Assembly (NCBI RefSeq): GCF_039649665.1
Contig: NZ_JBDJAW010000042.1
Location: 1-64,000 of the forward strand
Source: Microbispora sp. ZYX-F-249
Lineage (GTDB): Bacteria; Actinomycetota; Actinomycetes; Streptosporangiales; Streptosporangiaceae
DNA length: 64,000 nucleotides
Direction: 5' to 3'
The notes below the pieces were generated by a model, which saw nothing but the letters and a program-made list of their open reading frames with translations, had not been told where the DNA came from and searched no databases. Positions 9,873-27,923 of this stretch are shown here, piece by piece; position 1 is the stretch's first letter; each line of letters starts with the position of its first letter. The position numbers and the translations under genes were made by a program.

Positions 9873-9915
9873 TGTGCCGTCCGGCACTGACAACGGTGCG
9901 TAGTCAAGTAGTTCC

Positions 9916-12900
9916 TCACAAGACCTCGCCCTGCCTGGCGCGGGCCTGGCGGAGCCGCTCGGAGAAGACCGCGTGCGCCTGGCGATACTCGGCCTCTCGA
10001 TTGGCCTTGTAGAACGGCGCGGTGTACCCGTCGGGCACCGGCCCGTTGATCTCCGGGTCCAGGTGGGCCATGAGCTGCTCGAAGTGCTGCTTCGTCTGGC
10101 CATAGCCGTAGGTGTTGTGGTTGCCCGCGATCTTCCGCCCGTTCGCGTCGAACCAGATCTGCGCCTCGTAGTCGGACAGCACGGGGTATCGGGAACGATA
10201 GATGGCGACGAGCTGCTCGACCGTCATGCCGAGCCAGAGCGCGACCAGCGCATCCAGCTCGACCAGCGCGGCCCGCCGCGCACGTTCACTCCGCAACGGC
10301 ATGTTCCGGTTCCAAGTGGAACAGACCTCGTTGAGCGGAGGCAGGCCCGGCCAGTCAGTCGCCCAAGAATCGGTAGACCAGCATTCGTGGTAGAGCTCGG
10401 CCCAGAGGGAGGCATAAGCATCCGTTAGACAGTTGAGGCGCAGGGTTCGCAGCAGCACCGCCTGAGCTAGGGGATGGCCTGGGTCGGGCGCGGGCATACG
10501 CTGGGCCTCGGCGACCTGGAAATTCGTGCGCCCGATAATCCTCAAGAGATAATCCATGGGCAGCGCGGCCCAAAATCCAGCGGACAGGGCGGTTTCAAGA
10601 TCTGTCGGCATCGCCAGGGAATAGACCGCATGCACATGCGCCGGGCCCGGCGGGATCAATGTCGCAAACAGCGACCGTTCAGTATCGAAGGGAATCATCG
10701 CCCGCCAGGCGAGCCGAAAGAAATCGGTATACCGCCGGACCACTCCCTTACCGTCTTCCCATCGGTCCTGCACACCCAGGTAGGTTTCCTTGTCACAAGC
10801 CCGCTCGTAGTTGGTCACCGGAACAGCATCCTCGGACAGAACCGTCAAGTCCAAAGTCGCCCAGTCACGGTTCGTCTTGCATGGAATTCTTGGCTGCTTA
10901 CTATATGAGGTAGCCACACCGATATGAGGACCTTGAAAAATGACGTCGCGGAGGGAACCCGCCTCCCTGGTATTCCAGCGAATCGTTCCCGCAGCACGCG
11001 CACGCGGCTCGTCATAACCTCTGCTAACCCGCGGGTCGCCCCTCCCCAGACGCCGGTCGTAGACGGCAAGAGCCTCAATGGCACCGGCCTCCGCAGTTGT
11101 CACTGGATACAGCAAAGGCGTTTGCTCAACCGGAAGATCGACTGAATTTGTAAGCCGCCTCCACTGAGCAAGTAACATCCCGTTGACCTGGATCACCCGC
11201 GCCCTGTGGGGGCGCAGATCCCACTTGCCTTCGTGTTTGATACCCGGCAACTCTCCGACGCCATCGTGTTCGAGCGAGCCTATCAGCGTCTTTGAATCAA
11301 ACAACCAACTGACATGAGAAAAACCAATCGAACCGAAGTTCCCGTAGACATGGACTGCAAATTCGGTGTTGGCATGAATTTCTGAAAAGATTCCGCGCCG
11401 GTTATGGAAGTGCGCATGCATACGCAGGTGAGCGTAGGCGGCAGCACGTAAGCGACCCTCGGCAACACCGCCGAAATGGCTGTCCGGATGAATGAGGCCT
11501 GCCGTACCGTAACGGCCGAGGTTGGCCCAAATACGGCACATGAATGCCCGATAGAGGTCGGGCTGAGTTCCCTGCAGCAGCGGATAGGCAGCGGTCGAGC
11601 CCAGGAAGGAGAGCACGCCTGTGTAGGTAGCCAGCTCGCCGAGAAGGTACCGCTGTCCAGCACCCTCATGAAGAACCGTCGACCTTCGCACCTGCCAGTC
11701 AGCGAGACTGGACTTTTCGCTGAGCATGAACCACGGTTCCAGCTCGGCGAGAATCGGCGCCTCTATCCAACGCGGCCGGACCCAGGGCGGGTTGCCTACT
11801 TGGAGATCGAAGCCGCCCTTGGTGAAGACCTGGGCGAACTGGAGCTCCCAGTGGAAGAAGCCCTGCTGGTCGGCGATGTCTTTGACCGCGTCGAGCCACG
11901 GGAAGCGCTCACCGAGCCTGAAAGCCGAGTCCATGCCCATCCAGGTCTGGAGTTCGTCCTCGTAGACCTCCAACTCCGCGAGGGACGCGAAATTCGCGAC
12001 CAGGGAGTCTTCCGGGATATCCGCACGACCGAGCAGGGCCTCGGCGAAGTCGAGCCAGTCGTCGAGGGTGGCCAGGGGGATCACCGGGCGTAGGGGCTCC
12101 AAAGTGGGCCGGGGCTTGCGGGCGGCGGGCTTGGCCGGGCCGCCGGCCCTGGCGGCCTTCGCGTCCATGGCGTACGCCGCGAGGTCGAGCTGCTTGTCGC
12201 CCATGCTGAACAGGGACTCGGTGACGTAGACGTCTCCGAAGCCGATCGACTCGTCGGCGGCGGTGCTCTCGGTCGCGGGCGCGGTCGCCGACGAAGCCGG
12301 GGACGCGGGCCGTACCGGATCGGCCTCAGCGGCCTCGGCGGCGTGGCGGGCGTAGACCTCGTCGGAGCCGTCGAGCAGGCCCGCCTTGTCGAGCGGCCAG
12401 AACCACAGCGCGCACCAGGCGTCCATGACCTTCTTGAGCCGCCAGTACGGTGTGCCCGGCGCGGTCAGGTCGCCGTACACCTTCTCCTTGGGCACGGCGT
12501 CGGCCGGCTGCTCGATCCAGTCGGCGCCCCAGACGTCGATCTTGCGGCTGATCTCGCGCTCGGAGATGGCGAGGCGCTGCTGGACCAGGTCCCACAGATA
12601 TTCGGCCCGCTTCGACAACGCCTGAAGACGCTGGAGCTGGGTGAACTTCTGACCCTGCTTCTTCTTGTCGGAGACGCTCCTCTGGATCTGCTTGCGCCAG
12701 GCCTTGAGCCGGTTGGCCTGCTCGGGAGCGAGCTCCTTGGCCTCCTTCGCCTGAGCGACCGCACCCCAGCCCTCGGCGGGCAGCAGGAAGTGGTGCACCT
12801 TGCCCGAGGGCAGCTCCCCCGCCGAGAACGGCAGGTCCTCGGGGGCCTCCTTCAGCCAGGTGCCCTTGGCTAGAGAGGCGGCGCCGTACACTCTGCGGCC

Positions 12901-14970: not shown

Positions 14971-17759
14971 CGGGGTCCATCCTGGGGAACGAGTGCGGCG
15001 AGGACCCGCAGCAACGGCTCCCCTGTGATCTTGAGGGAGTCGAGCAGGCGCTGCTGCCGCTCGACGGTCTCGCGGACGCGCTGCTCCTTGCGCCCGCGCT
15101 GGGAGGCGTGCACGCCGTCGAGGGTGAGCTGCTGCCACTCACCGAGCCGGTCGCGGTAGAGGTCGAGCGGCTCCACGACCTTCTTCTCGTACGCCGAGCG
15201 GCGCTCCTCCAGATGCGCGCGGGCGGTGGCGACGGCCTGGGGCACCCGCTCCTGCAGCGGCCGGAGGTCGATCATCTGCCCGGTGTTGATCATCCTGGGA
15301 CCGACCTCGGCCGCGGCGAGCACGTCGGTCATCTTCCGGTCGAGCACGCCCGCGGGGGTGACGGCCATCCACTCGACGACGGTCGGCTGCCCGAGCCGGT
15401 TGGAGTAGATGCCCTGGATGAGGAAGGTCGGCTCGTCGACCTGGGCGGTGACGACCGGCGCCTTCTGGCGTCCGAGCCGTACGAGGACCTTGTCGGTCAC
15501 CCAGTCGACCATCGGGTGCAGGTCGGAGAGGTAGGCGATCTCCGGCCACATCGTCTTGGTCCTGCGCGCCTCGTCGAGCTTGCGCTGGGCCTCATCGCGG
15601 TCGAAGGTGACCTTCATCCGCCTGCGCACGTCGTGGGTGCGCAGGTAGTCGGCGGGCAGCGCGGACAGGCGGTGGGCGAGGTCCGGCGGCGGCTCGAAGG
15701 CGAGCATCACGCCGTCGTCCTCCAGGTCCTTGAGCAGCCCGAGCGTGTCGACGGCCTCCTTGACGAACGCCTCGGAGCCGTCGAAGAGCCGGGGCACCTC
15801 CGCGCGGAGCGGGTCGGCGCCCGTGACACCGCCGTCGACCGAACCGAACAGGCCGTCCAGGCCGAATGGGTCATCGGCGTTGTGCGCGGCGAGGGACTCC
15901 TCCACGCTCTTGCCGGCGAGCAGGTCCTGGATGAGGCGGCGTTCCTCGCGTTCGGCGCGGTACTCGCCGGTGACGGCCTCGGCCGTACCGAGCGTGCGGT
16001 GCGCCGTCGCCTCCTTCTCCAGGAGCTTCTCGGCGACGGCCCGGTCGTCCTTGGCCCCCTCGACCTCCGAGGTGAGGATGAGCGCCCGGAACTGCGGCTG
16101 CCGCGTCTGGCCGTAGCGGTCGATGCGGCCGTTGCGCTGCTCGATGCGGATGAGGCTCCACGGCACGTCGTAGTGGACCAGGTGATGGCACTGCCGGTGG
16201 AGGTTGACGCCCTCGGAGGTCACGTCGGTGGTCACCAGCAGGCGTACGGGGGCGTCGGAGAGCCCGAAACGCTCGATGATCTCCTGCTGCTGCTGGTCGG
16301 ACATGCCGTTGCCGAGCATCATCTCGACCTCGCCCTTGCCGGTCAGGCCGAGCCGCTTGGGCAGGACCTCGGCCAGCCACCTGACCGTCTCGACGCTCTC
16401 GGAGAAGACCACGGCCCGGGTCTCGCCGCCGTGCCGTACGCCGATCTCGTCACGCAGCAGGCGGACGAGGGCGTCGAGCTTGGCCGAGTCGGCGTCGGTG
16501 ATCTGCGCGGTCAGGTCCGCGAGGGTCTTCAGCGCGTCGATCTCCCGGGGCTCCTTGGCGTTCTTCAGCCGGTTGCCGACCGTCTTGGCAAGCGCCTTGT
16601 GCGAGGAGAGGAACGCCTTGAGCAGCGTGTAGGGGAAGAGCCGGTTCTTGCCGTCGACCACCGGGCCGCCCGCGCGCTGATGCTCAGCCGACGAGCCCTG
16701 GGCGAGCCAGACCTGGGTGAGCTCCTCGAAGACCTTCTCCTCGGCGGGGGTGGCGGCGCAGCGCACCGGGACGGAAGGACCCCGGTCGGGCCACTTCGCG
16801 CCCATCTCGTTGCGCACCTCGGGGCTGATCTTCGTACGGCGGATGTAGAGGTGCTCGATGTCCTTGGCGGAGTAGCTGCGGTCGTCGGCGATCGCGGCGG
16901 GGTCGAGCATGCGGATCAGCTCGGCGAACGACTCGCTGTTGCCGTTGTGCGGGGTGGCGCTGGCCAGCAGCAGCGCGTCCGTACGGCGGGCGAGCAGCTT
17001 GGCCAGCTTGTTGCGCAGGCTGGCCTCGCCGATCAGGTTGTGCGACTCGTCGATGACGACCGCGTCCCAGTCCATCTTCTCCAGGTGCTGGCCGTACTTG
17101 CCCTCGTTCTTGAGGGTGTCGATGGAGACGATGATCCGCTTGTAGTAGGTGAACGGGTTGCGGCCCGCGGGGATCTCCCGCTGGATGCGCTCGATGCCCA
17201 CGGAGTCGAGACGGATCAGCGGGATGGCGAAGCGGGTCCACAGCTCGTGCTGGAACTGCTCCAGCACCTGCTGCGGCGTGACCACGAGAATGCGCTCGCC
17301 CCGGCCGCGCCGGATGAGCTCGGCCAGGATGAGGCCGATCTCCAGGGTCTTGCCGAGGCCGACCACGTCGGCGATGAGTATGCGCGGGCGCAGGCCCTTC
17401 AGCGCGAGCTCGGCGGGCCGCCGCTGGTAGGGCAGCGGGTCGAGGAGGAAGCGGTCGGCGAGCGCGAGACCCTTCTCCGTCTGCGGGAGCGGCGTCCGGC
17501 GCAGGACGGCCTCGATGAACAGGCGGCTCTGCGCGAAGCGCGGGGTCATGTCCTGCTCCAGGACGGTCTCCTCCGGCTTGAGCAGGCTCACCTCGTCGAG
17601 GTCGGTGAAGAAGACCGCGTCCTCGTCGCGGACGAACTCCGACGCACCAACCGCCGTGATCTTGTAGCCACCCGTGGCGAGCTGCGCACAGGTGCGGACG
17701 ATCCACTCGGCGTCCCGGACCTCGATGCGGGCGCCGGGCGGGAAGGAGGTCTCGGTCAC
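14967..17759 (-). CDS. SNF2-family helicase (DrmD-like)
   Basis: This 930-residue SF2 translocase of the SNF2/RapA group carries Walker A DVVGLGKT at residues 131-138, the DESH box at 238-241, and a second-lobe motif LLVTTDVTSEGVNLHRQC followed by RIEQRNGRIDRYGQT. A short N-terminal barrel-like segment (residues 1-60, ending ...AVFFTDLDEVSLL) is typical of DISARM DrmD and similar helicases. The GTG start has AGAGGAG four bases upstream. The gene begins nine bases after the kinase stop and overlaps the methylase start by four bases, so the three are almost certainly co-transcribed. The known DISARM partner suggests it surveys or remodels incoming unmethylated DNA; that role is extrapolated. 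Confidence 0.88.
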   Translation of the reverse strand: MTETSFPPGARIEVRDAEWIVRTCAQLATGGYKITAVGASEFVRDEDAVFFTDLDEVSLLKPEETVLEQDMTPRFAQSRLFIEAVLRRTPLPQTEKGLALADRFLLDPLPYQRRPAELALKGLRPRILIADVVGLGKTLEIGLILAELIRRGRGERILVVTPQQVLEQFQHELWTRFAIPLIRLDSVGIERIQREIPAGRNPFTYYKRIIVSIDTLKNEGKYGQHLEKMDWDAVVIDESHNLIGEASLRNKLAKLLARRTDALLLASATPHNGNSESFAELIRMLDPAAIADDRSYSAKDIEHLYIRRTKISPEVRNEMGAKWPDRGPSVPVRCAATPAEEKVFEELTQVWLAQGSSAEHQRAGGPVVDGKNRLFPYTLLKAFLSSHKALAKTVGNRLKNAKEPREIDALKTLADLTAQITDADSAKLDALVRLLRDEIGVRHGGETRAVVFSESVETVRWLAEVLPKRLGLTGKGEVEMMLGNGMSDQQQQEIIERFGLSDAPVRLLVTTDVTSEGVNLHRQCHHLVHYDVPWSLIRIEQRNGRIDRYGQTRQPQFRALILTSEVEGAKDDRAVAEKLLEKEATAHRTLGTAEAVTGEYRAEREERRLIQDLLAGKSVEESLAAHNADDPFGLDGLFGSVDGGVTGADPLRAEVPRLFDGSEAFVKEAVDTLGLLKDLEDDGVMLAFEPPPDLAHRLSALPADYLRTHDVRRRMKVTFDRDEAQRKLDEARRTKTMWPEIAYLSDLHPMVDWVTDKVLVRLGRQKAPVVTAQVDEPTFLIQGIYSNRLGQPTVVEWMAVTPAGVLDRKMTDVLAAAEVGPRMINTGQMIDLRPLQERVPQAVATARAHLEERRSAYEKKVVEPLDLYRDRLGEWQQLTLDGVHASQRGRKEQRVRETVERQQRLLDSLKITGEPLLRVLAALVPQDGPR

Positions 17760-17768
17760 GGTTCTCCT

Positions 17769-18788
17769 CTAGAAACGGGCGCCGGCGGCGTACGCGCCGC
17801 GGAGGCGGTCGGCGAGCTTGGCGACCACGGAGCCGGGCACGACGACCTCGGACAGGTTACGGGGGCGCGGCCGGACGGACGGAGCAGGGGCCTTGGGGTC
17901 GGTCTCCCGCTCGACATAGGTGGCCTCGGCGAACCCGCGCACGGCCGCCGGCAGCGTGTCCCCTCCTGCCGTCGCCAGGTCCTTCAACTGCTCGTACGCC
18001 TCGCGCACGGTGGGGCGGTCGGCGGGGTCGTGGGCGACCATCGCGGCGATGAGCGGCTCGAACTCCGCGGGGAGGCCGCTCAGGTCGGGCTGCACCTCGG
18101 CGCTGATGATGTTCATGAACAGCGCCGCGACCGTCTTGCCTTCGTACGGGTAGTGCTTGGCCAGCGCGAACATCAGCGTCGCGCCGAGCGAGTAGACGTC
18201 GGTGGCGGCGGTGACCGTCTTCGGGGTGTTGGCCTGCTCGGGCGACATGCACGCGGGCGTGCCGAGCGTCGAGGTGGTCGTGGTCAGGTCGGTCGGGCCC
18301 TCGACGAGGGCGACCAGGCCCAGGTCGATGACCTTCGCCCCGTCCTTGCCGAGCAGGATGTTGCCCGGCTTCAGGTCGCGGTGGAGCAGACCGGCCTCGT
18401 GGATGTCCCCCAGGGCGGACGCCAGCAGGACGCCGAGCGTCGCCGCGTGCTCGCCGCTCAGCGGGCCGCGCGTCTCGACGTACTCCTTCAGGCTCAGGCC
18501 GCGCACGTACTCCACCGCGAGCCAGGGCGGTTCCTCGTCCTCGCCGGAGGCGTCGAACAGAGCGGCGACGTGCGGCCCCTGAACGGTGCGTAACGCGTCG
18601 ATCTCCCGGGCGAACCGGGCGCGCGCCTCGGTGTGGCCGAGCAGGTCCTCACGGATGATCTTCACGGCGACCTGTTCGTAGTCGTCGGTGATCCCGTAGA
18701 AGACCCGGCCCATCCCGCCGGAACCGAGCCGTCCGCGTAGCGTGATCCCGCCGATCCGCTGGGGGTCGGAACGGTCCAGGGGGTCCAT
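17769..18788 (-). CDS. Soluble Ser/Thr protein kinase (PknB-type)
   Basis: This 339-residue Hanks-type kinase begins at MDPLDRSDPQR, preceded by GGAGG and AGGTGAGC. Visible motifs are the glycine loop RLGSGGMGRVF, VAVKII, catalytic LHRDLKPGN, VIDLGL (DLG instead of DFG) and the activation segment GTPACMSPEQA. It has no transmembrane helix or extracellular sensor, so it is cytoplasmic; a Pro-rich tail of about 60 residues follows the kinase fold. As first gene of the minus-strand operon, it reads into the SNF2 helicase and methylase genes. That is unusual for DISARM but parallels the kinase PglW in BREX type 2. Alternatively it may regulate both divergent operons. Confidence 0.9.
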   Translation of the reverse strand: MDPLDRSDPQRIGGITLRGRLGSGGMGRVFYGITDDYEQVAVKIIREDLLGHTEARARFAREIDALRTVQGPHVAALFDASGEDEEPPWLAVEYVRGLSLKEYVETRGPLSGEHAATLGVLLASALGDIHEAGLLHRDLKPGNILLGKDGAKVIDLGLVALVEGPTDLTTTTSTLGTPACMSPEQANTPKTVTAATDVYSLGATLMFALAKHYPYEGKTVAALFMNIISAEVQPDLSGLPAEFEPLIAAMVAHDPADRPTVREAYEQLKDLATAGGDTLPAAVRGFAEATYVERETDPKAPAPSVRPRPRNLSEVVVPGSVVAKLADRLRGAYAAGARF

Positions 18789-19154
18789 GCTCACCTGCCT
18801 CCACGGCGACGTCGGGGGTAACGCACCACGCCCAAGATAAGCGGATCGGCCCTCTGAGATGCTCGTTCCGGTCTCAAGAAGATCACACCGCACACCAGGC
18901 GCCCGGCAACACTAGCCGAACGTTGCAGCGCCCGTACAGCAGAACCCTCACGTTGGACCAAACCGTCAATCCACTTGTGTTCTCAGTTCACAATGTGGTC
19001 TACTTGTCCGCGTTCACACCCCGCCGCGGCTTCCCACCGAGTCGACACTTCGAGACGTGATAGTTGACATCTGTACCAGAAGCCGGAAAGATCACGCCGA
19101 TTTCTGGCGCATGGACCGGTCCACCCGGAACCCCGCGTTTCGCACCCCCCAAAT
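18789..19154. other. 366-bp divergent intergenic control region
   Basis: This is the only gene-free stretch over 300 bp. It separates the kinase-SNF2-methylase operon from the membrane/TerY-P/BrxD operon, so both leftward and rightward promoters must lie here. It is lower in GC than the genes around it, especially near 18960-19090. Apart from the rightward promoter candidate listed separately I find no convincing operator palindrome, ORF or structured RNA. Confidence 0.7.
19064..19092 (+). promoter_or_regulatory. Candidate sigma70-type promoter for the TerY-P/BrxD operon
   Basis: A perfect TTGACA hexamer (19064-19069) is followed after 17 bp by AAAGAT (19087-19092), a weak match to TATAAT. 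The spacing is ideal and the site lies about 60 bp before the first start codon of the rightward operon. The weak -10 makes this a candidate only. Confidence 0.35.
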
Positions 19155-20846
19155 ATGACGAGAGGACGTCGGTCTTCCGTGACGGACCAGGAGCTTGCCG
19201 CCGAACTCCGTAAGCTCGCGAGGCACCCCGCGTTGGCCGCCCGGGCGGACCAGCTCGCCGATCTCGCGGACGCCGTGGACGACCCGGACAAGGCCGAGCT
19301 GTGGTGCGAGGTGGACCTGTTCGCCGCCTTCCCGCCGGAGGACACCGTCCAGGTGATCGTGCCGTCCACGCCGGCCTGGCAGAAGACCGTCAGGGTCATC
19401 TACTACGCGCAGGCCGTGCTGGTCTTCTTCCCGATCGCCATCACGTGGCTCGGGCTGAAGAAGGCGACCACGGCGTACGGGGAGGCCCTCGCGTCGGGAG
19501 GGGTCGAGGTCGCGCGCCGGCCGTTCCTGGAGATGTGGCAGCAGGGCTTCGACGGCAAGCTCGGCGGCCTGTGGAAGTTCGACAACGTGGCGATGATGAC
19601 GCTCACCATGCTCGCCCTCGTGATCGGCGTAACCCTCGCGGAGCGCTACATGCACCGCTGGGAGGACGAACGGGCGAGTGAGCAGGAGGAACAGCTGCGT
19701 CCGCGCCTCCTGTCGGCGCTCACCCGGGCGACCCTGTTTCTCGGCCGGGTACGCCTGGCATCTCCCGCCCGGTTCCAGGCCGAGCTGACCAAGAGCGCGA
19801 GCGAGCTGAGCAAGGTCGGCAGGACCATGAACAAGGTCCACAAGCAGGTCGTGGAGGAGCTGGAGAAGGCGCTGGAGGCCACCGGCCAGGCCACGGACGC
19901 GTTGACCGCGGGTGCCGCCGAGGTGCGGGACTCGGTCGCGAGCCTGGACAAGCACATGGCCGCCGTCTCCTCGGCCGCCGAGACCCTGCTGCGTTCGGTC
20001 GAGCGCACCGCCTATGCCATCGACTCCGTGGGCGAGAAGACCGACGAGGCGGTCGACCGGGTCGGTGACCGGCTCGGCAGTGTGATCACCGACTCGGCGA
20101 CCGGTCTGCGCAGGTCCCTCGACGAAGTCGCCACGCTCACCGGCCAGGCCGTGCGCGACATGGCGGACTCCACCGGCCAGGTGGTCAAGGACCTCGCGAA
20201 CTCGACGGAACAGGTCGTGCGTGACCTGGCGGACTCGACCGGGCAGGCCGTGCGCGACACGGCGGCGAGCCTGGACGCACGCGTCGGCGAACTGGTGAGC
20301 GCCACGGCCGGTATCGGTCCCGCCGTGAGCAGGGTGGAGACCGCCGCCACCGAGAGCGGTGCCCGGATCAGTGACGCCCTCACCAGCGGCAGCGGCACCC
20401 TCGCCGCCGTGTTCGGCGGTGCCGGAGCCGACATCAGGGAGGCGCTCGACGACTGGGCCGGCACCGCGAGCGCGCACGCCGCGAGGATCGAGATGGTCTC
20501 GGACACCGCGGGCCGCACCGTGGGGCTGCTGGAGGAGACGCGGGACGCGCTCGACCGGCTGCCCGCCGACCTCGCGCGGTCTCTCCAGGACGTCCCGGCG
20601 GCCGTCCGCGACGTCACCGGTCCCGAGATCGCCGCGCTGGAGGCCGCCATCGTCCGGTTGGAGGAAGCCGTACGGCAGGCGGCAGAAGCCGTCGCCGCCG
20701 GCGCCGCGGTCCGTCGCTCCGCGGACCAGGCGGACGTCTCGGTCCAGCCGGCGCTCTTCACCGTGTCCACTGAGCCGTCCCCTGAGGCTCACCCGCTCGT
20801 GACCCCCGCGGCGGACGCGGACGGCGGCGACGGAGGACGTGCGTGA
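19155..20846 (+). CDS. Two-TM membrane protein with long cytoplasmic coiled-coil tail (ZorA/MotA-like candidate)
   Basis: This 563-residue protein has hydrophobic segments at about 79-99 and 143-162, separated by a 40-residue loop, then roughly 380 residues of almost unbroken Ala/Asp/Glu/Ser/Thr-rich helix. Four 11-residue repeats (about 329-372) point to a hendecad coiled coil, as in chemoreceptor signalling stalks. No chemoreceptor core motif is visible. It is coupled by GTGA overlap to a single-TM protein with an intramembrane Asp. That pairing recalls ion-driven stators such as ZorA/ZorB and MotA/MotB, where the A protein carries TM helices and a long tail. The ATG at 19155 was chosen; GTG at 19179 is an alternative with GAGAGGAC upstream. 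The stator analogy is inference. Confidence 0.7.
   Translation: MTRGRRSSVTDQELAAELRKLARHPALAARADQLADLADAVDDPDKAELWCEVDLFAAFPPEDTVQVIVPSTPAWQKTVRVIYYAQAVLVFFPIAITWLGLKKATTAYGEALASGGVEVARRPFLEMWQQGFDGKLGGLWKFDNVAMMTLTMLALVIGVTLAERYMHRWEDERASEQEEQLRPRLLSALTRATLFLGRVRLASPARFQAELTKSASELSKVGRTMNKVHKQVVEELEKALEATGQATDALTAGAAEVRDSVASLDKHMAAVSSAAETLLRSVERTAYAIDSVGEKTDEAVDRVGDRLGSVITDSATGLRRSLDEVATLTGQAVRDMADSTGQVVKDLANSTEQVVRDLADSTGQAVRDTAASLDARVGELVSATAGIGPAVSRVETAATESGARISDALTSGSGTLAAVFGGAGADIREALDDWAGTASAHAARIEMVSDTAGRTVGLLEETRDALDRLPADLARSLQDVPAAVRDVTGPEIAALEAAIVRLEEAVRQAAEAVAAGAAVRRSADQADVSVQPALFTVSTEPSPEAHPLVTPAADADGGDGGRA
20139..20270 (+). repeat. Four 33-bp repeats encoding 11-residue coiled-coil units
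   Basis: Within the coiled-coil membrane protein, four consecutive 33-bp units encode TGQAVRDMADS, TGQVVKDLANS, TEQVVRDLADS and TGQAVRDTAAS. Third-base differences between copies show the repeat is kept at protein level. An 11-residue period is characteristic of hendecad coiled coils. Confidence 0.8.
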
Positions 20847-21379
20847 GGACCCGTCATGGTTCGGGATCGTCCCTGCTCCTCGCGGGGTGGCTGTTCGCCG
20901 ACCTCCTGCTCGGGCTCACGATCATCATGCTGGGCGCGCAGGCGCCGCCTCCGGCACCGGCCAAGCCCCTGGGCGCGGAGGGAACCGCGAGCGCGTCACC
21001 GACCCCCTCGCCGAGCGCCTCTCCCTGCGCTACGCAGACCGCCGGCGTCGGGGCGAAGGCGACGAAGATCTCGTTCTCCGTCAACCCCGGCGCCAGTGAC
21101 GCCGCCCTCACCCGTCAGGTGAGGTCGGAGTTGCTCAAGCACAGGAGCCGCCTCGCCGGCAGGCATGCCGGCATGGTGCTCACCTTCGGCGCCGCGGGTG
21201 GAGCCGGCGACGGCGTGCATCTCGCGAGCCGCGTCAACGACGCCGTCAGCACGGCCTTCCCCGGCATCTTCGGGACGGCGGCCACCCGCGACTTCCATGA
21301 TCTCGCCGCTCCGGCCGGGTCGATCTCCATGGAGATCTACTTCGTGACCAGCGGCTGTACCCGCACCTCGAAGAGCTGA
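20843..21379 (+). CDS. Single-TM extracytoplasmic protein with intramembrane Asp (ZorB/MotB-like candidate)
   Basis: This 178-residue protein has one TM helix at about 11-31 containing GWLFADLLLGL, with Asp20 buried in the helix. A Pro/Ser-rich linker (34-62) and a compact domain at about 72-175 follow outside the membrane. Cys62 and Cys172 bracket that domain and could form a disulfide. A charged Asp near the start of a lone TM helix is the hallmark of MotB, ExbD and ZorB, where it carries protons or ions. The VLTFG...LASRVNDAV stretch could be a divergent OmpA-like fold, but key peptidoglycan-binding residues are not obvious. The GTG start overlaps the upstream stop. Function is unproven. 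Confidence 0.65.
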   Translation: MRTRHGSGSSLLLAGWLFADLLLGLTIIMLGAQAPPPAPAKPLGAEGTASASPTPSPSASPCATQTAGVGAKATKISFSVNPGASDAALTRQVRSELLKHRSRLAGRHAGMVLTFGAAGGAGDGVHLASRVNDAVSTAFPGIFGTAATRDFHDLAAPAGSISMEIYFVTSGCTRTSKS

Positions 21380-21389
21380 GGACCACCCG

Positions 21390-22061
21390 ATGAGTGAACA
21401 GGTACTCCCCTTCTACCTTGTCTGCGACGAGTCGTACTCCATGCAGGGAGCGCCGCTCGACGCCATCAACCAGGAGCTCCCCCTGATCTACCAGGAGATC
21501 GCCGTCAACCCGGTGGTGGCCGACCGGGTGAGGCTCGCCATCATCGGGTTCAGCAGCACCGCCGAGGTGCTGCTCCCGCTGGCCGACCTCAACGACGTGC
21601 ACTCGATGCCGCAGCTGTCGCCTCGCGGCGCGACCAGCTACGGCGCCGCGTTCTCCCTGCTGAAGCACACGATCGAGCAGGACATCGCGGGGCTGAAGCA
21701 TGACGGCCATGTCCCCTATCGGCCCACCGTGTTCTTCCTCACGGACGGGCTTCCCACGGACGAGTGGCATGTCGAGCACAAGAACCTGGTCAGCCGCGAC
21801 TTCAGGGCCCATCCGACCATCCTGGCCTTCGGGTTCGGCGACGTGGACCCCACGACCCTGCAGCAGGTGGCCACCTTCCGGGCGTTCATCGCGAACAGCG
21901 ATATGTCGCCCGCGCAGGCCCTGCGCGAGTTCGCGCGGCAGCTGCTCAACTCCGTGGTCCAGTCGGCGGTCGCGTCGTCGGCAAACCCCTCGGGCGCCGC
22001 CCAGATCGTCGTCCCCGACCAGGTGCCGGGCTACACGGTTCTCGCCCCCGACCCGCTCTGA
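21390..22061 (+). CDS. TerY-like von Willebrand factor A domain protein
   Basis: This 223-residue cytoplasmic protein consists of a vWA domain. The metal-ion-dependent adhesion site is intact: D13-E-S-Y-S17 (DxSxS), a Thr in RGATSYGAAF near 83, and Asp in FLTDGLPTD near 120. It matches the TerY group, which occurs with a PP2C phosphatase and a kinase as the TerY-P triad described alongside tellurite-type stress systems and DNA-processing genes. Both partners lie immediately downstream. The start is 10 bp after the preceding stop. A role as a metal-dependent scaffold for the phospho-signalling pair is inferred from those families. Confidence 0.88.
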   Translation: MSEQVLPFYLVCDESYSMQGAPLDAINQELPLIYQEIAVNPVVADRVRLAIIGFSSTAEVLLPLADLNDVHSMPQLSPRGATSYGAAFSLLKHTIEQDIAGLKHDGHVPYRPTVFFLTDGLPTDEWHVEHKNLVSRDFRAHPTILAFGFGDVDPTTLQQVATFRAFIANSDMSPAQALREFARQLLNSVVQSAVASSANPSGAAQIVVPDQVPGYTVLAPDPL

Positions 22062-22087
22062 ACCGTACGCCGGAAAAGGAACCCCCC

Positions 22088-22969
22088 ATGGAACAGCTCC
22101 AGGAGTACGCGGCGACCGAGACCGCGGAGGCCGTACCCGGAATCCCCCCGCCGCTCGTCATCGGCCGTGAGCCGCGCGTCCCGTCCGAGCCGGGCGCGCT
22201 GCCCTCGGTGCAGCGGCCGGACACCGAGATCGACGGAGCCGCACTGCCCGGCCTCGTGGTGCGGGCCGCCTCCGTCCGGGGCGACGTCCACCGCTACTAC
22301 GGCACACCGCGACAGGACGCGATGGGGCTCTGGCACGACGGCGACCGCACGCTGCTGGCCTGCGTGGCTGACGGCCTGGGCAGCAAGGAGCTCTCGCAGC
22401 TCGGCGCGGACACGGCCTGCCGGGCCGCCCACGCCTATCTCGACGGCCTGCTCGCCGACGATCCCGCGGAGCCCGCCCGGCGCTTGGTCGAGAGCATCGC
22501 CCGGGAGATCCGGGAACAGGCGGAGCGGTGCGAGGCGCCGCCGGACGAGTTGTCCACCACCTTCCTCGCCGCCGTGGTGCAGGAACGGCCCGAGACGCCG
22601 GCGCATCGCGTCGTCCTCGTGCGTGTCGGCGACTGCGACGCCTGGCGGCTGCACCGGGGGGTGCTGGTGCCCTGCTTCGATGACGACGACAAAGAGGAGG
22701 AGGCGATGGTCGCGACCTCGGAGACCCGCGCTCTGCCTCGCCACATCGAGCATGTCGAAGTCAGACAACTGGATCTCCACCCGGGCGACATGCTGCTCCT
22801 GTGCACGGACGGCCTGTCGAAGCCCATGCGTGGTCCGCAGGTGAGCACCCAGTTGGCGGCCTGGTGGCACAACGGCCCGCCGTCGTTGACCGAGTTCTTC
22901 TGGCAGATGAGCTTCCGGGCGAAGACACACGACGACGACCGGACCGCCGTGTGCATCTGGAGAGTCTGA
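22088..22969 (+). CDS. PP2C-family Ser/Thr phosphatase (TerY-P triad)
   Basis: This 293-residue protein starts at MEQLQEYAATE, seven bases after GGAAAAGGA. It has PP2C metal-binding motifs: Asp in GTPRQDAMGLW, VADGLGSKE, LLLCTDGLS and the C-terminal DDDRTAV. An N-terminal extension of about 60 residues, Pro-rich and probably disordered, precedes the catalytic core. It would dephosphorylate targets of the kinase that begins at the next base after its stop codon. Together with the vWA protein it completes the TerY-P triad. No TM helix is present, so it acts in the cytoplasm. Confidence 0.9.
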   Translation: MEQLQEYAATETAEAVPGIPPPLVIGREPRVPSEPGALPSVQRPDTEIDGAALPGLVVRAASVRGDVHRYYGTPRQDAMGLWHDGDRTLLACVADGLGSKELSQLGADTACRAAHAYLDGLLADDPAEPARRLVESIAREIREQAERCEAPPDELSTTFLAAVVQERPETPAHRVVLVRVGDCDAWRLHRGVLVPCFDDDDKEEEAMVATSETRALPRHIEHVEVRQLDLHPGDMLLLCTDGLSKPMRGPQVSTQLAAWWHNGPPSLTEFFWQMSFRAKTHDDDRTAVCIWRV

Positions 22970-24508
22970 ATGCCCTTCACCCCCCACCCCCTCGACCGGC
23001 AGCGCCACACCCTCGCCCTCGAAGCCGATCGCCTCGGCGAGGGCGGCCAGGGCGTGGTCACCCGGGTGCTCGGGCCGGAGAACCTCGTCTACAAGGAGTA
23101 CATGCCGCAGGCCAGCCAGGTGAACGACCGCGCCCTGGCCGACCTTGTCGACTTCGGTCAGCGGCAGGCCGCCGGGGAGGCACGCACCCTGCTCGCCCAG
23201 TGCGCCTGGCCCGTGGCGCGGGTGGTGAGCGGGGGCAGGGTCACCGGCTTCCTGATGCCGGAGGTGCCCGGTGAGTTCTACGGTCCGATCGGCGGCAAGC
23301 CCAAGCTGGTCGAACTGCAGTATCTGCTGTACGAGCCCAACTGGGCCTGGCAGGACCTGCACCAGCCTCATGTCATGGGCCGCCTGGAGATCGCGACGCT
23401 GGCCGCCAAGCTGATCGACCTGCTCCACAACCACGGCTGGATCGTCGGCGACCTGTCGTTCCGCAATCTCCTGTGGCGGCCCGCGGCGCCGTACAAGGTC
23501 TTCATGCTCGACTGCGACGGCCTGCGCCGGCACGGAGCCGAGCCGGTGCTGCGGCAGGCGCACACGCCCGACTGGAACGACCCGCACCAGCCGTCCAGCG
23601 GCCCGGACCTGGACACCGACCGGTACAAGCTCGCGCTGCTGGTCGGCCGGGTGCTGTCGCGGACCGCGTCGGTGCGGCCCGGCGAGGAGCCCGCGCTGCT
23701 TCCCGGTCTTCCGGATCAGGTGACCACGCCGGTCAGAGAGCTCTTCGCCCGGGCGGCAGGGCCGCGCGGCACCCGCCCGGCCGTGGCCGAGTGGGTGCAG
23801 GCGCTGGAAGGCCGCAAGCGCATCGCGGTGACCCGCCCATCCCGTCCGCAGCCCTCGGCCCCCACCGGCCCCCTCGCCCCCATGAACCTGGGCACGGGCA
23901 GGAGCAGCGTCCCCATCAGCCGGCCGGTGCCCAACAGCCGACGGGCACCCTCCCAGCCGGTGGTGAATCCGACGCCGATCGAGCGGCGATGGGCACCCCT
24001 GTCGCACAAAGGCGGAGTGCCGGCAGGGCAGGCTGGTCAAGCCGCACGCACCGCCGCACCGACGCAACCGGGTTTCCAAGCGGCGACCAAGGTCGCGCGG
24101 CTGCGGCCCGTATCGGTGACGGCGCCCGCGTCCGGTTCCCCGGCCGCGGCACCGCCGACGACTCCGGCGACTCCGGCGACAGGCCGGCCCACGCTGGGGC
24201 AGCGGGTGATCAACTCGCGGACCTATGCGGAGCAGCGCCTGCTGGCTCCCCGGGGCGGGGTCGTCGACGACGGCGCGGTGGCACGTGTCATCGACCACCT
24301 CGCGGCGGGCACGGGGCGGGACGCGGTGGTGAACATCGCGCGGCTGCTCGGGGAGACGTCGGACAGGACGGTCCTGCTCATGCGGGCATCGAAGAACCTG
24401 CTCAACGTGGAGCAGGCGGATGTGATCGCGCTGAAGGACGGCGACCGCACGGTCGAACTGAACGTGTCGCTGCTGGAAGAGCAGTTCCTCGAGGAGGATG
24501 AGCCGTGA
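22970..24508 (+). CDS. TerY-P type protein kinase with PglZ-tail-like C-terminal segment
   Basis: This 512-residue protein has a divergent kinase fold at residues 1-285: glycine loop GEGGQGVV, Lys in LVYKEYM, catalytic WIVGDLSFRNLLW and FMLDCDGL (DCD in place of DFG). Such kinases accompany TerY and PP2C. A Pro/Ala-rich linker (285-405) leads to a C-terminal module of about 100 residues ending LLNVEQADVIALKDGDR...VELNVSLLEEQF. From memory, this tail resembles the end of BREX-2 PglZ proteins (LLNV...VL...LD..LL..QF). If so, it may dock onto the BrxD-like ATPase encoded next, whose start overlaps this stop (GTGA). Kinase activity is likely because Lys and Asp remain; the tail homology is inference. 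Confidence 0.8.
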   Translation: MPFTPHPLDRQRHTLALEADRLGEGGQGVVTRVLGPENLVYKEYMPQASQVNDRALADLVDFGQRQAAGEARTLLAQCAWPVARVVSGGRVTGFLMPEVPGEFYGPIGGKPKLVELQYLLYEPNWAWQDLHQPHVMGRLEIATLAAKLIDLLHNHGWIVGDLSFRNLLWRPAAPYKVFMLDCDGLRRHGAEPVLRQAHTPDWNDPHQPSSGPDLDTDRYKLALLVGRVLSRTASVRPGEEPALLPGLPDQVTTPVRELFARAAGPRGTRPAVAEWVQALEGRKRIAVTRPSRPQPSAPTGPLAPMNLGTGRSSVPISRPVPNSRRAPSQPVVNPTPIERRWAPLSHKGGVPAGQAGQAARTAAPTQPGFQAATKVARLRPVSVTAPASGSPAAAPPTTPATPATGRPTLGQRVINSRTYAEQRLLAPRGGVVDDGAVARVIDHLAAGTGRDAVVNIARLLGETSDRTVLLMRASKNLLNVEQADVIALKDGDRTVELNVSLLEEQFLEEDEP

Positions 24509-25830
24509 CGGCGAAGGTCAGCCGGGCGAGGCGACGGCAGATCATCGATGCCCTGGGCCGCGGGACCGTGCCGCGCAACGGCCTCGACCTGTTCGCGGTC
24601 GGCATGGATCGCTTCGAGAAGGCGCTCGACGACGATCTGACGGCGGTCACGGCGGGTGGCGCGGGGTTCAAGGCGGTCCGGGGCGAGTACGGCTCGGGCA
24701 AGACGTTCTTCGCGCGCTGGCTGGCCGAACGGGCCAAGCGGAAGAGGATGGCCACGAGCGAGATCCAGATCTCGGACCGGACGACGCCCCTGCACCGGCT
24801 GGAGACCGTCTACCGCTCGCTGATCGGCGGCCTGAGCACGGCGACCTCGCCGCCGAGCGCGCTGCGGGACATCGTGGACACCTGGCTTCTCGCTCTCGAG
24901 GACGACACCGGGGTGGCCAAGGACGCCCGAGGCGCGATGACGGTCGCGGTGGAGGACCTCATCGAGTCGCGGCTGGCGGAGACCGCCAGGAACGCGCCCG
25001 CGTTCGCGACCGCGCTGCGCTTCTACCGGCGGGCTCGGCTGGCCGGCGACAACGCGACCGCCGACGGCCTGCTCGCCTGGGTGGGCGGCGAGCCGAACGT
25101 CGCGTCGAACGTCCGCCGCTACGCCGGGCTCAAGGGCGACGTCGACTCGGCCGCGGCCCTGCACTTTCTGCAGGGCCTGCTGGTCGTGCTGCGGGACTGC
25201 GGCTATCCCGGGTTGCTCGTCGTGCTCGACGAGGTCGAGACTCTGCAGCGGATGCGCAGCGACAACCGCGACCGGAGCCTGAACACCCTGCGGCAGCTCA
25301 TCGACGAGATCGACAAGGGCCGGTTCCCCGGTCTCTACCTGGTCATCACCGGCACGCCCGCCTTCTATGACGGCCAGCAGGGCGTGCAGCGGTCCCCCGC
25401 CCTCACGCAGCGGCTGCACTCCGACTTCAAGACCGACGCGCGGTTCGACACCGCCCGGGCGGTGCAGATCCGGCTCACCGGGTTCGACCGCGACAAGCTG
25501 GTCGAGCTGGGCTGCGCCGTACGCGATCTGTACGCCCAGGGAGACCCCGCCGAGCAGCGGATCAGGACGCTCGTGGACGACGCCTACGTCAAGGACCTGG
25601 CGTCGGCGGTGGCCGGTCATCTCGGGGCCGGAGTGGCACCCCGCGTCTTCCTGCGCAAGCTCGTCGCCGACGTGCTGTACCGCGTCTCCGACCACGAGGA
25701 CTTCCACCCGCGCAGGGACTACCGGGAGGTCCGGGTCGAGGAGGGCGAGCTGAACGACGACGAGCTGAACGCGTTGCGCCGTGGCCGCGCCGCCGCCTCG
25801 GCCGACGACGTGGAGCTCGACCTGTCGTGA
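24505..25830 (+). CDS. BrxD-like ATPase (DUF2791 family)
   Basis: This 441-residue AAA-type ATPase carries Walker A GEYGSGKT at 60-67 and a Walker B-like LLVVLDEVETL near 240. The N-terminal RQIIDALGRGTVP...GLDLFAVG motif and the overall layout match BrxD/DUF2791 proteins of BREX type 2 and of TerY-P loci. GAGGAGG lies eight bases upstream of the GTG start. It overlaps both neighbours by four bases. In BREX, BrxD is paired with the BrxHI helicase; the same pair is kept here without pglX or pglZ in the window. It probably loads or powers the helicase on DNA; that mechanism is inferred. Confidence 0.87.
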   Translation: MTAKVSRARRRQIIDALGRGTVPRNGLDLFAVGMDRFEKALDDDLTAVTAGGAGFKAVRGEYGSGKTFFARWLAERAKRKRMATSEIQISDRTTPLHRLETVYRSLIGGLSTATSPPSALRDIVDTWLLALEDDTGVAKDARGAMTVAVEDLIESRLAETARNAPAFATALRFYRRARLAGDNATADGLLAWVGGEPNVASNVRRYAGLKGDVDSAAALHFLQGLLVVLRDCGYPGLLVVLDEVETLQRMRSDNRDRSLNTLRQLIDEIDKGRFPGLYLVITGTPAFYDGQQGVQRSPALTQRLHSDFKTDARFDTARAVQIRLTGFDRDKLVELGCAVRDLYAQGDPAEQRIRTLVDDAYVKDLASAVAGHLGAGVAPRVFLRKLVADVLYRVSDHEDFHPRRDYREVRVEEGELNDDELNALRRGRAAASADDVELDLS

Positions 25831-27923
25831 CCTCGCCGGCCCTCGCGTTGCATCCGACGATCGCCTATCACCTCACCAACACTCTGGGCTGGCAGAGGCT
25901 GCGGCCGCTGCAGCAGGGGGCGCTCGGTCCCATCGGCGACGGCCGCGACGCGCTGCTCATCGCGCCGACGGCGGGCGGCAAGACCGAGGCGGCCGTGTTC
26001 CCGCTGCTGTCCGTAATGGAGGAGCAGAGGTGGACCGGGCTGTCGGTGCTGTACGTCTGCCCGCTCAAGGCGCTGCTCAACAACCTGCTGCCACGCCTGC
26101 AGGCGTACGCGGGGTGGCTCGGCAGACGGGTGGAGCTCTGGCACGGCGACGTGTCCCGCTCGCGCCGCCAGACGATCCTGCGTGATCCCCCGGACATCCT
26201 GCTGACCACTCCGGAGTCCCTGGAGGCGATGCTCATCGGCACCGGGGTCGACCACCGCCGCCTGCTGGCGGATCTGCGGGCGGTGGTGGTCGACGAGGTC
26301 CACGCCTTCGCCCGGGACGACCGGGGCTGGCATCTGCTCGCCGTCCTGGAGCGCCTCACCCGGCTGGCCGGACGGCCGCTCCAGCGCATCGGCCTGTCGG
26401 CGACCGTGGGAAATCCGGATGACCTGCTCTCCTGGCTGCAGGGGTCGGGTGCCGCAACCCGGCCCTCGGAGGTGATCGCCCCGGAGACGCGGACCGATCC
26501 CGGGGCGGCCGATGTGGAGCTGGACCACGTCGGGTCCGTCGCCAACGCCGCCCGCGTCATCGCGGCGCTGCACAACGGCGAGAAGCGCCTCGTCTTCTGC
26601 GACTCCCGCAGGATGGTGGAGGAGCTCGGCCAGATGCTGCGCGACCTCGGCGTCACGACGTTCCTCTCCCATTCCTCCCTGTCCGCCGAGGAGCGCCGGC
26701 GCGCGGAGGAGGCGTTCGCGCAGTCCCGCGACTGCGTCATCGTCTCGACCTCGACGCTGGAACTGGGCATCGACGTCGGAGACCTGGACCGGGTCATCCA
26801 GATCAACGCTCCCTGGACGGTCGCGTCGTTCCTCCAGCGTCTCGGGCGCACGGGGAGGCGCTCGGGGGTCAGGCGCAACTGCCTCGTCCTGGCCCTGACC
26901 CCGGACGACCTCCTCGCCTCAGCGGGTCTCCTGCTGCTGTGGAGCAGGGGGTACGTCGAGCCGCTGCGGCCGCCGTCGTCGCCCCGGCACATCGTCGCGC
27001 AGCAACTCCTCGCGCTCACGCTGCAGGAGGGCCGCATCGGCGACGCCCTGTGGCCGGACTGGTGGAACGGCATCGGCCCATTCGGCGAGCAGGACGCACG
27101 GCCGGTGCTCGACCATCTCATCGCGCAGGGCTTTCTCGAGCGGGACGGAGGCGGTCTCCTCGTCGGCCCCCAGGCCGAGCGGCGCTTCGGCCGCAGGCAC
27201 TTCATGGACCTCACCGCGGTGTTCACGGCACCGCCGGAGTTCACCGTCCTGCGCGGCAACGTCGAGATCGGCCGGACGGACCCCGGCCTGCTGACCTCCG
27301 CCGTCTCGGGGCCGCGCCTGCTGTTGCTGGCCGGCCGTACGTGGGCGGTGGACTGGATCGACTGGAAACGACGGCGATGCTTCGTCCAGCCCGTGGATGG
27401 GGGCGGCGGCAGGGCACGCTGGGCGACGTCGATGTCGGGCGGGGCCTCCTTCGCCCTGTCGCGGGCCATGCGGGACGTCGTGCTCGGCGCCGATCCGCCC
27501 GTGAAGCTCACGCGCCGGGCGGTGAGCGGGCTGACGGGGATACGGGAGGACCACCGCGACCTCGTCAGGCCCGACGGCACGGTGATCGTGCGGACCGGAG
27601 GAGACCTGCAGTGGTGGACCTGGGCCGGGTACCGCGCCAACGCCACCCTCACCGCGACCCTCGGGCCGCTCGCCGATCCGACGCAGCGCGTGGACGACCA
27701 GCACATCAGGCTGAGGAACGACCTGACCGGCACTGGGTGGCGGCAGGATCTCGTGAGCAGGCTGAGCCGCCCCGAGGTGGACGAGCGGGCGCTGAACGGG
27801 CTCAAGTTCAGTGCGCTGCTGCCTCACGAGCTCGCCGTCGAGACGCTGGCCGCACGCCTGGCCGACTACCCCGCGGCGGCCGCCGTGCTTGCCGAGCCGG
27901 CGCATCTGGTGAATTTCGTGTAG
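25827..27923 (+). CDS. Lhr-like DEAD/DEAH helicase (BrxHI-like)
   Basis: This 698-residue SF2 helicase has APTAGGKTEA at 46-55, DEVH near 157, SATVGN near 192, TLELGIDVGDLDRVIQ and QRLGRTGRRSG in the second lobe, then a winged-helix and C-terminal region typical of Lhr and BrxHI. It is coupled to the BrxD gene by a GTGA overlap and closes the seven-gene operon. BrxHI is a known component of BREX type 2; here it is associated with a TerY-P triad and a membrane pair. The expected activity is ATP-dependent DNA translocation or unwinding. No nuclease domain is evident. Confidence 0.9.
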   Translation: MTSPALALHPTIAYHLTNTLGWQRLRPLQQGALGPIGDGRDALLIAPTAGGKTEAAVFPLLSVMEEQRWTGLSVLYVCPLKALLNNLLPRLQAYAGWLGRRVELWHGDVSRSRRQTILRDPPDILLTTPESLEAMLIGTGVDHRRLLADLRAVVVDEVHAFARDDRGWHLLAVLERLTRLAGRPLQRIGLSATVGNPDDLLSWLQGSGAATRPSEVIAPETRTDPGAADVELDHVGSVANAARVIAALHNGEKRLVFCDSRRMVEELGQMLRDLGVTTFLSHSSLSAEERRRAEEAFAQSRDCVIVSTSTLELGIDVGDLDRVIQINAPWTVASFLQRLGRTGRRSGVRRNCLVLALTPDDLLASAGLLLLWSRGYVEPLRPPSSPRHIVAQQLLALTLQEGRIGDALWPDWWNGIGPFGEQDARPVLDHLIAQGFLERDGGGLLVGPQAERRFGRRHFMDLTAVFTAPPEFTVLRGNVEIGRTDPGLLTSAVSGPRLLLLAGRTWAVDWIDWKRRRCFVQPVDGGGGRARWATSMSGGASFALSRAMRDVVLGADPPVKLTRRAVSGLTGIREDHRDLVRPDGTVIVRTGGDLQWWTWAGYRANATLTATLGPLADPTQRVDDQHIRLRNDLTGTGWRQDLVSRLSRPEVDERALNGLKFSALLPHELAVETLAARLADYPAAAAVLAEPAHLVNFV

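Follow-up and report, generated by a model that had tools for sequence, protein, structure and literature searches.

Introduction

Several described defence and conflict systems resemble parts of the locus reported here. In BREX type 2, the C-terminus of the Type-2 PglZ forms a three-stranded winged helix-turn-helix (wHTH), and it has been suggested that the ATPase BrxD may load or activate the helicase BrxHI (PMC12839542). In the ZorAB complex of Zorya, a ring of Ser/Thr residues surrounds the intramembrane aspartate of ZorB, D24/D21 (PMC11890865). Kinases of TerY-P triads have been described with a C-terminal zinc ribbon or OB fold (PMC11090510). GAP1-N2 systems occur with Hsp70, or with a kinase, a PP2C phosphatase and a von Willebrand factor A (vWA) protein (Kaur et al. 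2020, PMC7159879), and the same paper reports transmembrane (TM) components in 67% of GTPase-centric systems. Here we describe a seven-gene operon of the soil-type actinobacterium Microbispora sp. ZYX-F-249, on the plus strand at 19155-27923 of a stretch of 64,000 nucleotides (contig NZ_JBDJAW010000042.1, positions 1 to 64,000; hereafter the window). It joins three defence vocabularies: a Zorya-like membrane input, a TerY-P phospho-switch and a BREX-2 motor.

The operon is neither Zorya nor BREX. It is real and conserved, and combines known kinds of parts in a new way; its membrane pair was not placed by the searches made here. The seven genes look like one machine, which is probably a new phage-defence design. 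Searches of open-access literature, preprints excluded, listed no paper that describes the combination in its title or at the start of its abstract, and the available main text of PMC12839542 contains no TerY, Zor, PP2C or Shango. The operon offers a handle on an open question of BREX, the role and recruitment of BrxD and BrxHI, which occur here without a methylase, a PglZ phosphatase or PglY in the operon; the only further BREX component is the C-terminal domain of PglZ, carried by the kinase. The operon in addition brings to light a family of membrane proteins that is common to many predicted conflict loci and unnamed in the libraries used.

Results

Gene content of the operon

Seven same-strand open reading frames (ORFs) fill exactly the interval 19155-27923, in high-GC DNA, as claimed in an earlier note on this DNA. 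That note described the junctions as mostly 4-bp overlaps, which is true of only three of the six (-4, +10, +26, 0, -4 and -4 bp). Codon-position GC bias picks six of the seven ORFs; the PP2C ORF is not picked, yet is clearly a PP2C by Pfam. The features are as follows.

19155..20846, plus strand: gene 1, 563 residues; helical N-terminal part, two TM segments and a long helical coiled-coil-type tail
20843..21379, plus strand: gene 2, 178 residues; short basic N-terminus, one TM segment (residues 11-29), Pro/Ser-rich linker and alpha/beta outer domain (about residues 69-168)
21390..22061, plus strand: gene 3, 223 residues; TerY-like vWA protein (PF00092, 1.7e-9) with DxSxS (DESYS) and TDG motifs
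22088..22969, plus strand: gene 4, 293 residues; PP2C-type phosphatase (PF13672, PP2C_2, 2e-34) with ADGLG and TDGL motifs
22970..24508, plus strand: gene 5, 512 residues; protein kinase domain, Pro-rich linker and C-terminal winged-helix-type domain
24194..24505, plus strand: C-terminal domain of gene 5 (residues 409-512), homologous to the BREX-2 PglZ C-terminal wHTH (PDLC02565, NF033446, alignment A6)
24505..25830, plus strand: gene 6, 441 residues; BrxD ATPase with Walker A motif GEYGSGKT (NF033438, 4.4e-175; PDLC02494, 600.6 bits)
25827..27923, plus strand: gene 7, 698 residues; BrxHI helicase with APTAGGKT and DEVH motifs (PDLC02503, 1029.2 bits over residues 5-693)

The domain assignments of the earlier note are borne out. 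Gene 1 has hydrophobic segments at residues 81-99 and 144-162 followed by a long helix, and the single hydrophobic segment of gene 2 holds Asp20. Besides the vWA and PP2C matches listed above, Pfam gives BrxC_BrxD (2e-136) for gene 6 and DEAD (3.1e-31) and Helicase_C for gene 7, while the kinase is recognised by its motifs VYKEY, GDLSFRNLL and LDCDG together with an NCBIfam match to the LanL kinase. Kinase, vWA, BrxD and two PP2C motifs are all present in the window proteins; for PP2C these two were the motifs assessed, the pattern for a third matching no row. The vWA call comes from Pfam only, gene 3 having no PADLOC match, and the PADLOC match of gene 4 is weak (PDC-M21C, 0.016). Gene 6 exceeds the NCBIfam cut-off for BrxD (582.8 versus 350 bits), and the Walker A motif of gene 7 reads as in its relatives. 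The operon had also been said to lack zorC/D/E, ter core genes, pglX and pglZ; its proteins match none of the first three and no complete pglZ, taking for gene 7 the best 25 PADLOC and NCBIfam rows.

A PglZ-type domain on the kinase

What the earlier note missed is the PglZ-type domain at the C-terminus of the kinase. Gene 5 as a whole matches no Pfam model at E<=1, its LanL-kinase match (5.3e-7) lies under the cut-off of that model, and its alignment to a kinase-like protein encoded on a Rhodococcus plasmid has an E of 5e-23 in a comparison with five proteins. Residues ~361-507, in contrast, match the PglZ C-terminus in PADLOC (PDLC02565, 1.3e-18, profile positions 772-906 of 910) and in NCBIfam (NF033446, 6.2e-17, profile positions 750-889 of 890); the whole-protein score for NF033446 is under the model cut-off, as would be expected of a single domain. 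The winged-helix domain comprises about 104 residues. A profile made from six operon kinases retrieves, conversely, the C-terminus of an annotated BREX-2 PglZ in locus L006 (38 bits) and that of an ORF upstream of BrxD on an unannotated Azospirillum plasmid, L007 (59 bits); alignment A6 joins the gene 5 domain with the C-termini of these two ORFs upstream of brxD. In an alignment of ten kinases (A3), all six wHTH carriers come from BrxD loci; of the four kinases without the domain, three stop at 307-314 residues and one ends soon past the linker.

With the A6 domain as query, 394 genomes of the class were searched, up to 12 candidates being scored in each; 48 of them had matches, at 51 places. 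Re-reading 49 of these places (the window and genome G033 omitted) located the end of the domain 1-10 residues before a stop codon in all 49, and a same-strand BrxD within 1.5 kb after it in 41, including L147, which is the operon in a congener. The frames bearing the domain have at least 900 codons from stop to stop and are PglZ-sized, except in L147, L130 and L194, and PglZ annotation was checked for L006 only. In L164, L166, L167, L169 and L187, PglZ-sized frames with a C-terminal wHTH have no BrxD within 1.5 kb downstream. A Deinococcus psychrotolerans plasmid (L004, 5002-19197) carries two tandem BrxD-helicase pairs, and the proteins ahead of these look by eye coiled-coil or ATPase-like rather than like PglZ.

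Conservation of the operon and origin of its BrxD

Among 100 genomes of the family, its own included, 14 have a gene 1 match; up to 13 candidates were scored per genome, and the tallies of the genome searches are lower bounds. A scan with the gene-2 alignment, using the gene-2 words AGWLFADL and AG[MI]VLTFGA and retaining the best 80 of 100 confirmed matches, yielded 77 loci, mostly from Actinomycetota, with some from Chloroflexota and one from a Thermoanaerobacterales metagenome-assembled genome (MAG). Together with the window, L147, L034 and L038 they form a set of 81 loci, which were scored with our own profiles in six frames; a part is called absent if absent by those profiles, and linked means on the same strand with gaps below 2 kb. 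Pieces of a single genome count as separate loci (L051, L070 and L082 of Streptosporangium minutum; L107 and L115 of Actinomadura sp. KC06), and one genome contributes both L047 and L095.

All seven parts are found in order in 13 of the 81 loci, the window included. The gene order is more than chance because it recurs complete in 12 other loci, and a chance adjacency of unrelated genes was rejected on this ground. This supports the proposal of the earlier note that the design is a distinct one: the 13 complete loci keep the membrane pair together with the TerY-P-type triad and BrxD/BrxHI, and the survey of whether the pair is conserved with the other five genes brought no refutation. Another three loci (L054, L055 and L051) have the kinase-wHTH protein, BrxD and BrxHI behind the pair, with neither vWA nor PP2C; gene 1 is in place in L054 and L055, and L051 is cut by the contig end inside gene 2. 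The pair is followed by vWA, PP2C and kinase in 11 loci, with variants of that architecture in three (L088, L101 and L107). It is alone among the profiles used in 43 loci, and eight have other architectures. Gene 1 accompanies gene 2 in 76 of the 81, three of the five exceptions being cut by a contig end. The membrane pair is thus a separable module that occurs without the other five genes, a second point absent from the earlier note.

Of the 30 loci with a linked kinase, 16 carry wHTH, BrxD and BrxHI together on the strand of the kinase, and the other 14 carry none of the three there; Fisher's p for this split, 7e-9, is overstated, because all 16 operon BrxDs fall in one clade. That clade has an SH-aLRT support of 100 in a tree of 64 rows (quick search, rooted on very distant rows), and seven BrxDs from BREX-type loci of the same family sit beside it with a support of 87. 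The natural reading would be one event in which the 3' end of pglZ, brxD and brxHI were captured together downstream of a TerY-P kinase gene. In L101, the Thermoanaerobacterales MAG (1714-13485), kinase, vWA, PP2C, a second kinase and the pair are on one strand and BrxHI and BrxD on the other, split by two ORFs, one of which reads by eye like a HipA-type kinase; under the same-strand rule this locus is counted among the 14.

In Herbidospora daliensis and H. galbida (L054 and L055), the kinase reads GNLSIHKIL instead of GDLSFRNLL, a loss of the motif with the catalytic Asp, while wHTH, BrxD and BrxHI are kept. Because of this replacement the kinase is probably inactive, a pseudokinase still carrying the PglZ-type domain. 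The kinase motif is intact in S. minutum L051, which has no vWA or PP2C. The constant parts of the reduced forms are the pair, the kinase-wHTH protein and the BrxD-BrxHI motor, and phospho-control seems optional. A kinase-centred search of viral contigs confirmed no relative; tblastn against plasmids returned five records for the kinase, none covering 80% of it, and none for gene 2.

The membrane pair

A likeness of genes 1 and 2 to ZorA and ZorB was proposed in the earlier note; an intramembrane Asp, a conserved Thr and a coiled-coil tail recall these proteins, but profile and fold searches found no homology to stators. By hydropathy, gene 1 has two TM segments in 60 of 67 members and one in the other seven. 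Its first TM segment contains three near-invariant residues, Pro93 (66/67), Thr97 (65/67) and Trp98 (66/67; alignment A5). The AlphaFold model of residues 1-276 is all helical, with a mean pLDDT (predicted local distance difference test) of 91 and a long helix continuing from the second TM segment. Foldseek returned 345 matches to this model at E<=10, none at E<=0.001; no stator protein is among the 50 listed, which resemble coiled-coil noise. Library matches of gene 1 fall on coiled-coil regions: PADLOC matches to ZorA begin at residue 207 or later, i.e. in the tail, and NF033914 (ZorA) scores 21.1 bits against a cut-off of 190, over residues 209-483. In 197 genomes of the class there was no ZorA above the family cut-off, and the weak match of the window covered profile positions 461-609 of 619. 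For the 67 members, there was no MotA_ExbB among the 25 listed of 93 weak Pfam families.

Gene 2 has no match in PADLOC, Pfam or NCBIfam, and for 63 members there was no plug or OmpA-type family among all 10 weak Pfam families. Against PDB sequences, the profiles of both genes gave coiled-coil or chance matches only. The pair is, as far as these comparisons reach, outside every family that the searches run here could name. The codon for Asp20 (20900-20902) lies inside the TM segment. Asp20 is kept in the window protein and in all ten relatives of alignment A1, which were reached through gene 1 (L031 and L032, with contig-cut gene 2, and the weak G083 and G093 being excluded). It is also invariant in the larger set of 63, mostly collected by words, one of which contains that Asp; conservation is partly circular in the 77-locus scan, and A1 is the less biased set. 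In the AlphaFold model, an alpha/beta domain follows the Pro/Ser-rich linker, with a block of pLDDT 92-98 at residues 71-170. Foldseek found nothing in the PDB at E<=0.001 for this outer domain; Atu1372 and Rid-family proteins rank first, and the peptidoglycan-binding domains of SiiA, OprF, OmpA and PA0833 are among the first 30 weak matches, so that the modelled domain may be called weakly like OmpA-type peptidoglycan-binding domains. The stator likeness rests on the intramembrane Asp, the near-invariant Pro/Thr of the partner and the coiled-coil tail; Thr97 and Asp20 would be counterparts of the ZorAB Ser/Thr ring and Asp by analogy, not homology.

Other partners of the pair and flanking genes

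For the 51 loci (of 81) that have no linked kinase of this type, partners were searched over the whole locus (up to ~20 kb) and irrespective of operon linkage, and the resulting groups overlap. A GAP1 protein like that of L110 is present in 11 of the 51, an Hsp70-type protein in 12, and a relative of a 720-residue protein without Pfam match in 16. Relatives of DO-GTPase and GAP1 are encoded in three Thermogemmatispora loci. The CHAT-EAD1 and C9 genes of L077 both have relatives in eight loci, and its kinase has one in seven of these eight. In four loci there are relatives of a dynamin-like GTPase together with one of an SrfB-like protein, and 18 loci match no representative. DO-GTPase or GAP1 genes lie near the pair in L099 (DO-GTPase2, GAP1-N2) and L110 (GAP1-M, GAP1-C).

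Seven Streptomyces loci (L091, L097, L103, L108, L110, L112 and L113) show two Hsp70-type genes, the pair and then the conserved protein of ~720 residues, with kinase relatives further on in all and GAP1 relatives in most. In L038, L066, L077, L094, L100, L105, L109 and L111 the pair occurs with a protein of 600-1000 residues and a CHAT-EAD1 relative, and with a kinase relative in seven of the eight; two representatives of the 600-1000-residue protein were scanned and had no Pfam match. These CHAT-EAD1 loci are perhaps another conflict system. A Rhodococcus opacus plasmid (L005, 6983-12424) encodes a DUF4407 protein, a vWA-like protein (by eye) and a related kinase, then GIY-YIG and DUF3883 genes, perhaps a parallel membrane-vWA-kinase design.

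Upstream of the operon, the minus strand of the window bears DruE-like, ParA-like, Argonaute-like, type IIG-like, DrmD-like SNF2 and PD-T4-6-like kinase genes. The type IIG-like methylase, the DrmD-like SNF2 helicase and the PD-T4-6-like kinase (9916-18893) diverge from the operon, and this block recurs in the same order, at 62-85% identity, to the left of the operon in Sphaerisporangium perillae and S. album (L044 and L047). In or next to a lower-GC region at 6-12 kb, the minus strand (31-6537 and 7615-10103) encodes a DruE-like helicase of 2168 residues and a ParA-like ATPase and has an Argonaute-like ORF. Ten flanking proteins of seven operon loci all have PADLOC matches at 1e-5 or better, the strongest being DpdE (841 bits), DrmD (1385), a type I methyltransferase (405) and type IIG (256); matches of the flank kinase and SNF2 proteins are less telling. 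By these matches, the sampled flanks carry predicted defence genes.

Discussion

Proposed mechanism

In the mechanism that we propose, genes 1 and 2 would form an envelope-spanning sensor. Gene 2 would be anchored by its single Asp-bearing TM helix and place its domain outside the membrane near the wall, while the contribution of gene 1 would be a pair of TM helices and, in the cytoplasm, a long coiled-coil rod. When the envelope is disturbed, for instance by phage DNA injection, the pair would switch its state, possibly with ion flow through the Thr97/Asp20 site, and the rod would pass the signal to the cytoplasm, to be read by the TerY-P-type switch of vWA, PP2C and kinase. The kinase, through its C-terminal wHTH, would recruit or license BrxD, which would load BrxHI onto the incoming DNA, and this DNA would be unwound, stripped or blocked before replication. 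That the operon is a composite defence (conflict) system working in this way we regard as having about an even chance.

Several observations weigh against this mechanism. No nuclease was found in the operon, and profile and fold searches give the pair no stator kinship. In the two Herbidospora loci, phosphorylation seems dispensable because vWA and PP2C are missing and the kinase motif is degenerate. The division of the kinase-linked loci into 16 and 14 does not amount to 30 independent events, and the BrxD tree fits one origin. In L101, kinases without wHTH have BrxHI and BrxD as neighbours on the opposite strand; therefore BrxD can lie next to a kinase that has no wHTH. Eight of the 49 re-read places (L164, L166, L167, L169, L187, L190, L192 and L194) have no BrxD after the domain, L190 being truncated by a contig end and the frame of L194 having 97 residues, so docking to BrxD is not the sole conceivable role of the wHTH; wHTH domains often bind DNA. 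Finally, the flanking proteins submitted to PADLOC were hand-picked long ORFs, ten from seven loci.

The pair might instead be a plain membrane anchor or wall receptor and no ion-driven stator, in which case gene 2 binds a wall or phage component and the coiled coil of gene 1 tethers the kinase complex; to this we give somewhat less than an even chance. Only two TM segments in most gene 1 proteins, the want of stators among the listed fold matches, of MotA_ExbB among the best gene 1 families and of plug or OmpA-type families among those of gene 2, and the confinement of ZorA matches to the tail all fit such an anchor. The conserved TM Asp and the near-invariant Pro93 and Thr97, however, exceed the needs of an anchor and recall the ZorAB Asp facing a Ser/Thr ring (PMC11890865), and the outer domain of gene 2 weakly resembles in fold the peptidoglycan-binding domains of SiiA, OprF and OmpA, with Rid-type proteins ranking higher. 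A different doubt concerns the wHTH, which could bind DNA or a phage component rather than BrxD, its linkage stemming from joint capture out of a BREX-2 locus; this is possible, at odds clearly below even. The clade-specific terminal domains of PglZ, the Type-2 wHTH included, have been treated as recruited DNA- and macromolecule-binding modules (PMC12839542), the places without BrxD agree with such a role, and the one-clade origin of BrxD fits capture of the pglZ 3' end and brxD-brxHI as a single DNA block. Against it, the domain is kept in all 16 BrxD-linked kinases, even the two with degenerate motifs, and was not found in the 14 kinases without same-strand BrxD.

Surface signalling related to stress or development, in place of phage defence, is an unlikely purpose for the operon. 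Most of the 77 loci come from actinomycetes, many of which are mycelial, as this would suggest; but BrxD, BrxHI and the PglZ-type domain are components of phage defence, the flanks sampled are defence genes, the presence of gene 1 in the family is patchy, and elsewhere the pair shares its locus with genes of predicted conflict systems, GAP1/DO-GTPase or CHAT-EAD1. Least probable by far is an accessory to BREX-2 acting in trans with PglX, PglY and PglZ. The operon has BrxD, BrxHI and the PglZ-type domain in common with BREX-2, and the genome of the window also holds L184 (G000:C1:160673-175948), which looks like BREX-2 by its gene sizes and BrxD/BrxHI. The BrxD of L184 is, however, in another clade than that of the operon, and among the seven genomes with the operon only that of the window has a second copy of the domain; the other six have the operon copy only, PglX and PglY not having been searched for. 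In this search all candidates were scored in G034 and G059 and 150 of 169-227 in the others, and most assemblies consist of many contigs.

Returning to the composite defence system, a wider version of it can be put forward tentatively, at clearly less than an even chance: genes 1 and 2 may be the common two-helix, stator-like input of an actinobacterial and chloroflexotal conflict superclass with interchangeable modules, in which the PglZ wHTH would be a portable adaptor that connects BrxD-BrxHI to unrelated sensors. The modules would be TerY-P, TerY-P with BrxD-BrxHI, the Hsp70 pair, GAP1/GTPase, dynamin/SrfB and CHAT-EAD1.

Comparison with known systems

With Zorya, the operon shares a two-gene membrane pair, in which gene 2 has a single TM segment, an intramembrane Asp and an outer domain, and gene 1 a coiled-coil tail and a conserved Thr. 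It differs in that gene 1 has two TM segments, that searches gave the TM region no match in sequence or fold, and that a kinase and BrxD/BrxHI lie downstream; no zorC/D/E or other Zorya effector is matched in PADLOC by the seven proteins (for gene 7, among the best 25 of 86 families). Membership of Zorya was rejected, ZorA matches being confined to the tail of gene 1.

Adjacent vWA, PP2C and kinase genes, with an extra C-terminal domain on the kinase, are shared with the TerY-P triad. Compared with the triad and CoCoNuTs, that domain is here PglZ-type and the partners are the membrane pair and BrxD/BrxHI. Gene 5 shows neither a zinc ribbon nor an OB fold, its C-terminal domain matching PglZ and the protein having no Pfam match at E<=1. 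The GAP1-N2 DO-GTPase systems share kinase, PP2C and vWA genes, and the same pair has GAP1, kinase and Hsp70 genes close by in some loci of Streptomyces; the window operon differs in having BrxD/BrxHI and no GAP1 or GTPase Pfam match in its seven proteins. The available text of PMC7159879 contains no mention found of the membrane pair.

Shango (SngB/SngC) shares a pair of BrxD-like ATPase and BrxHI-like helicase. The window proteins fit the BrxD and BrxHI models far better than those of Shango (600.6 versus 125.6 and 1029 versus 375 bits). SngA has a TerB domain, and neither SngA nor TerB is among the library matches listed for the operon proteins.

A remnant or accessory of BREX-2 was considered and rejected on the separate BrxD clade and the single copy of the domain among the candidates scored in six of the seven genomes. 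With BREX type 2 the operon shares the order of BrxD and BrxHI and a PglZ-type C-terminal wHTH encoded directly upstream of brxD. It differs in that PglX, PglY/BrxC and the PglZ phosphatase core are not matched, the wHTH is carried by a TerY-P-type kinase, and a membrane pair is added.

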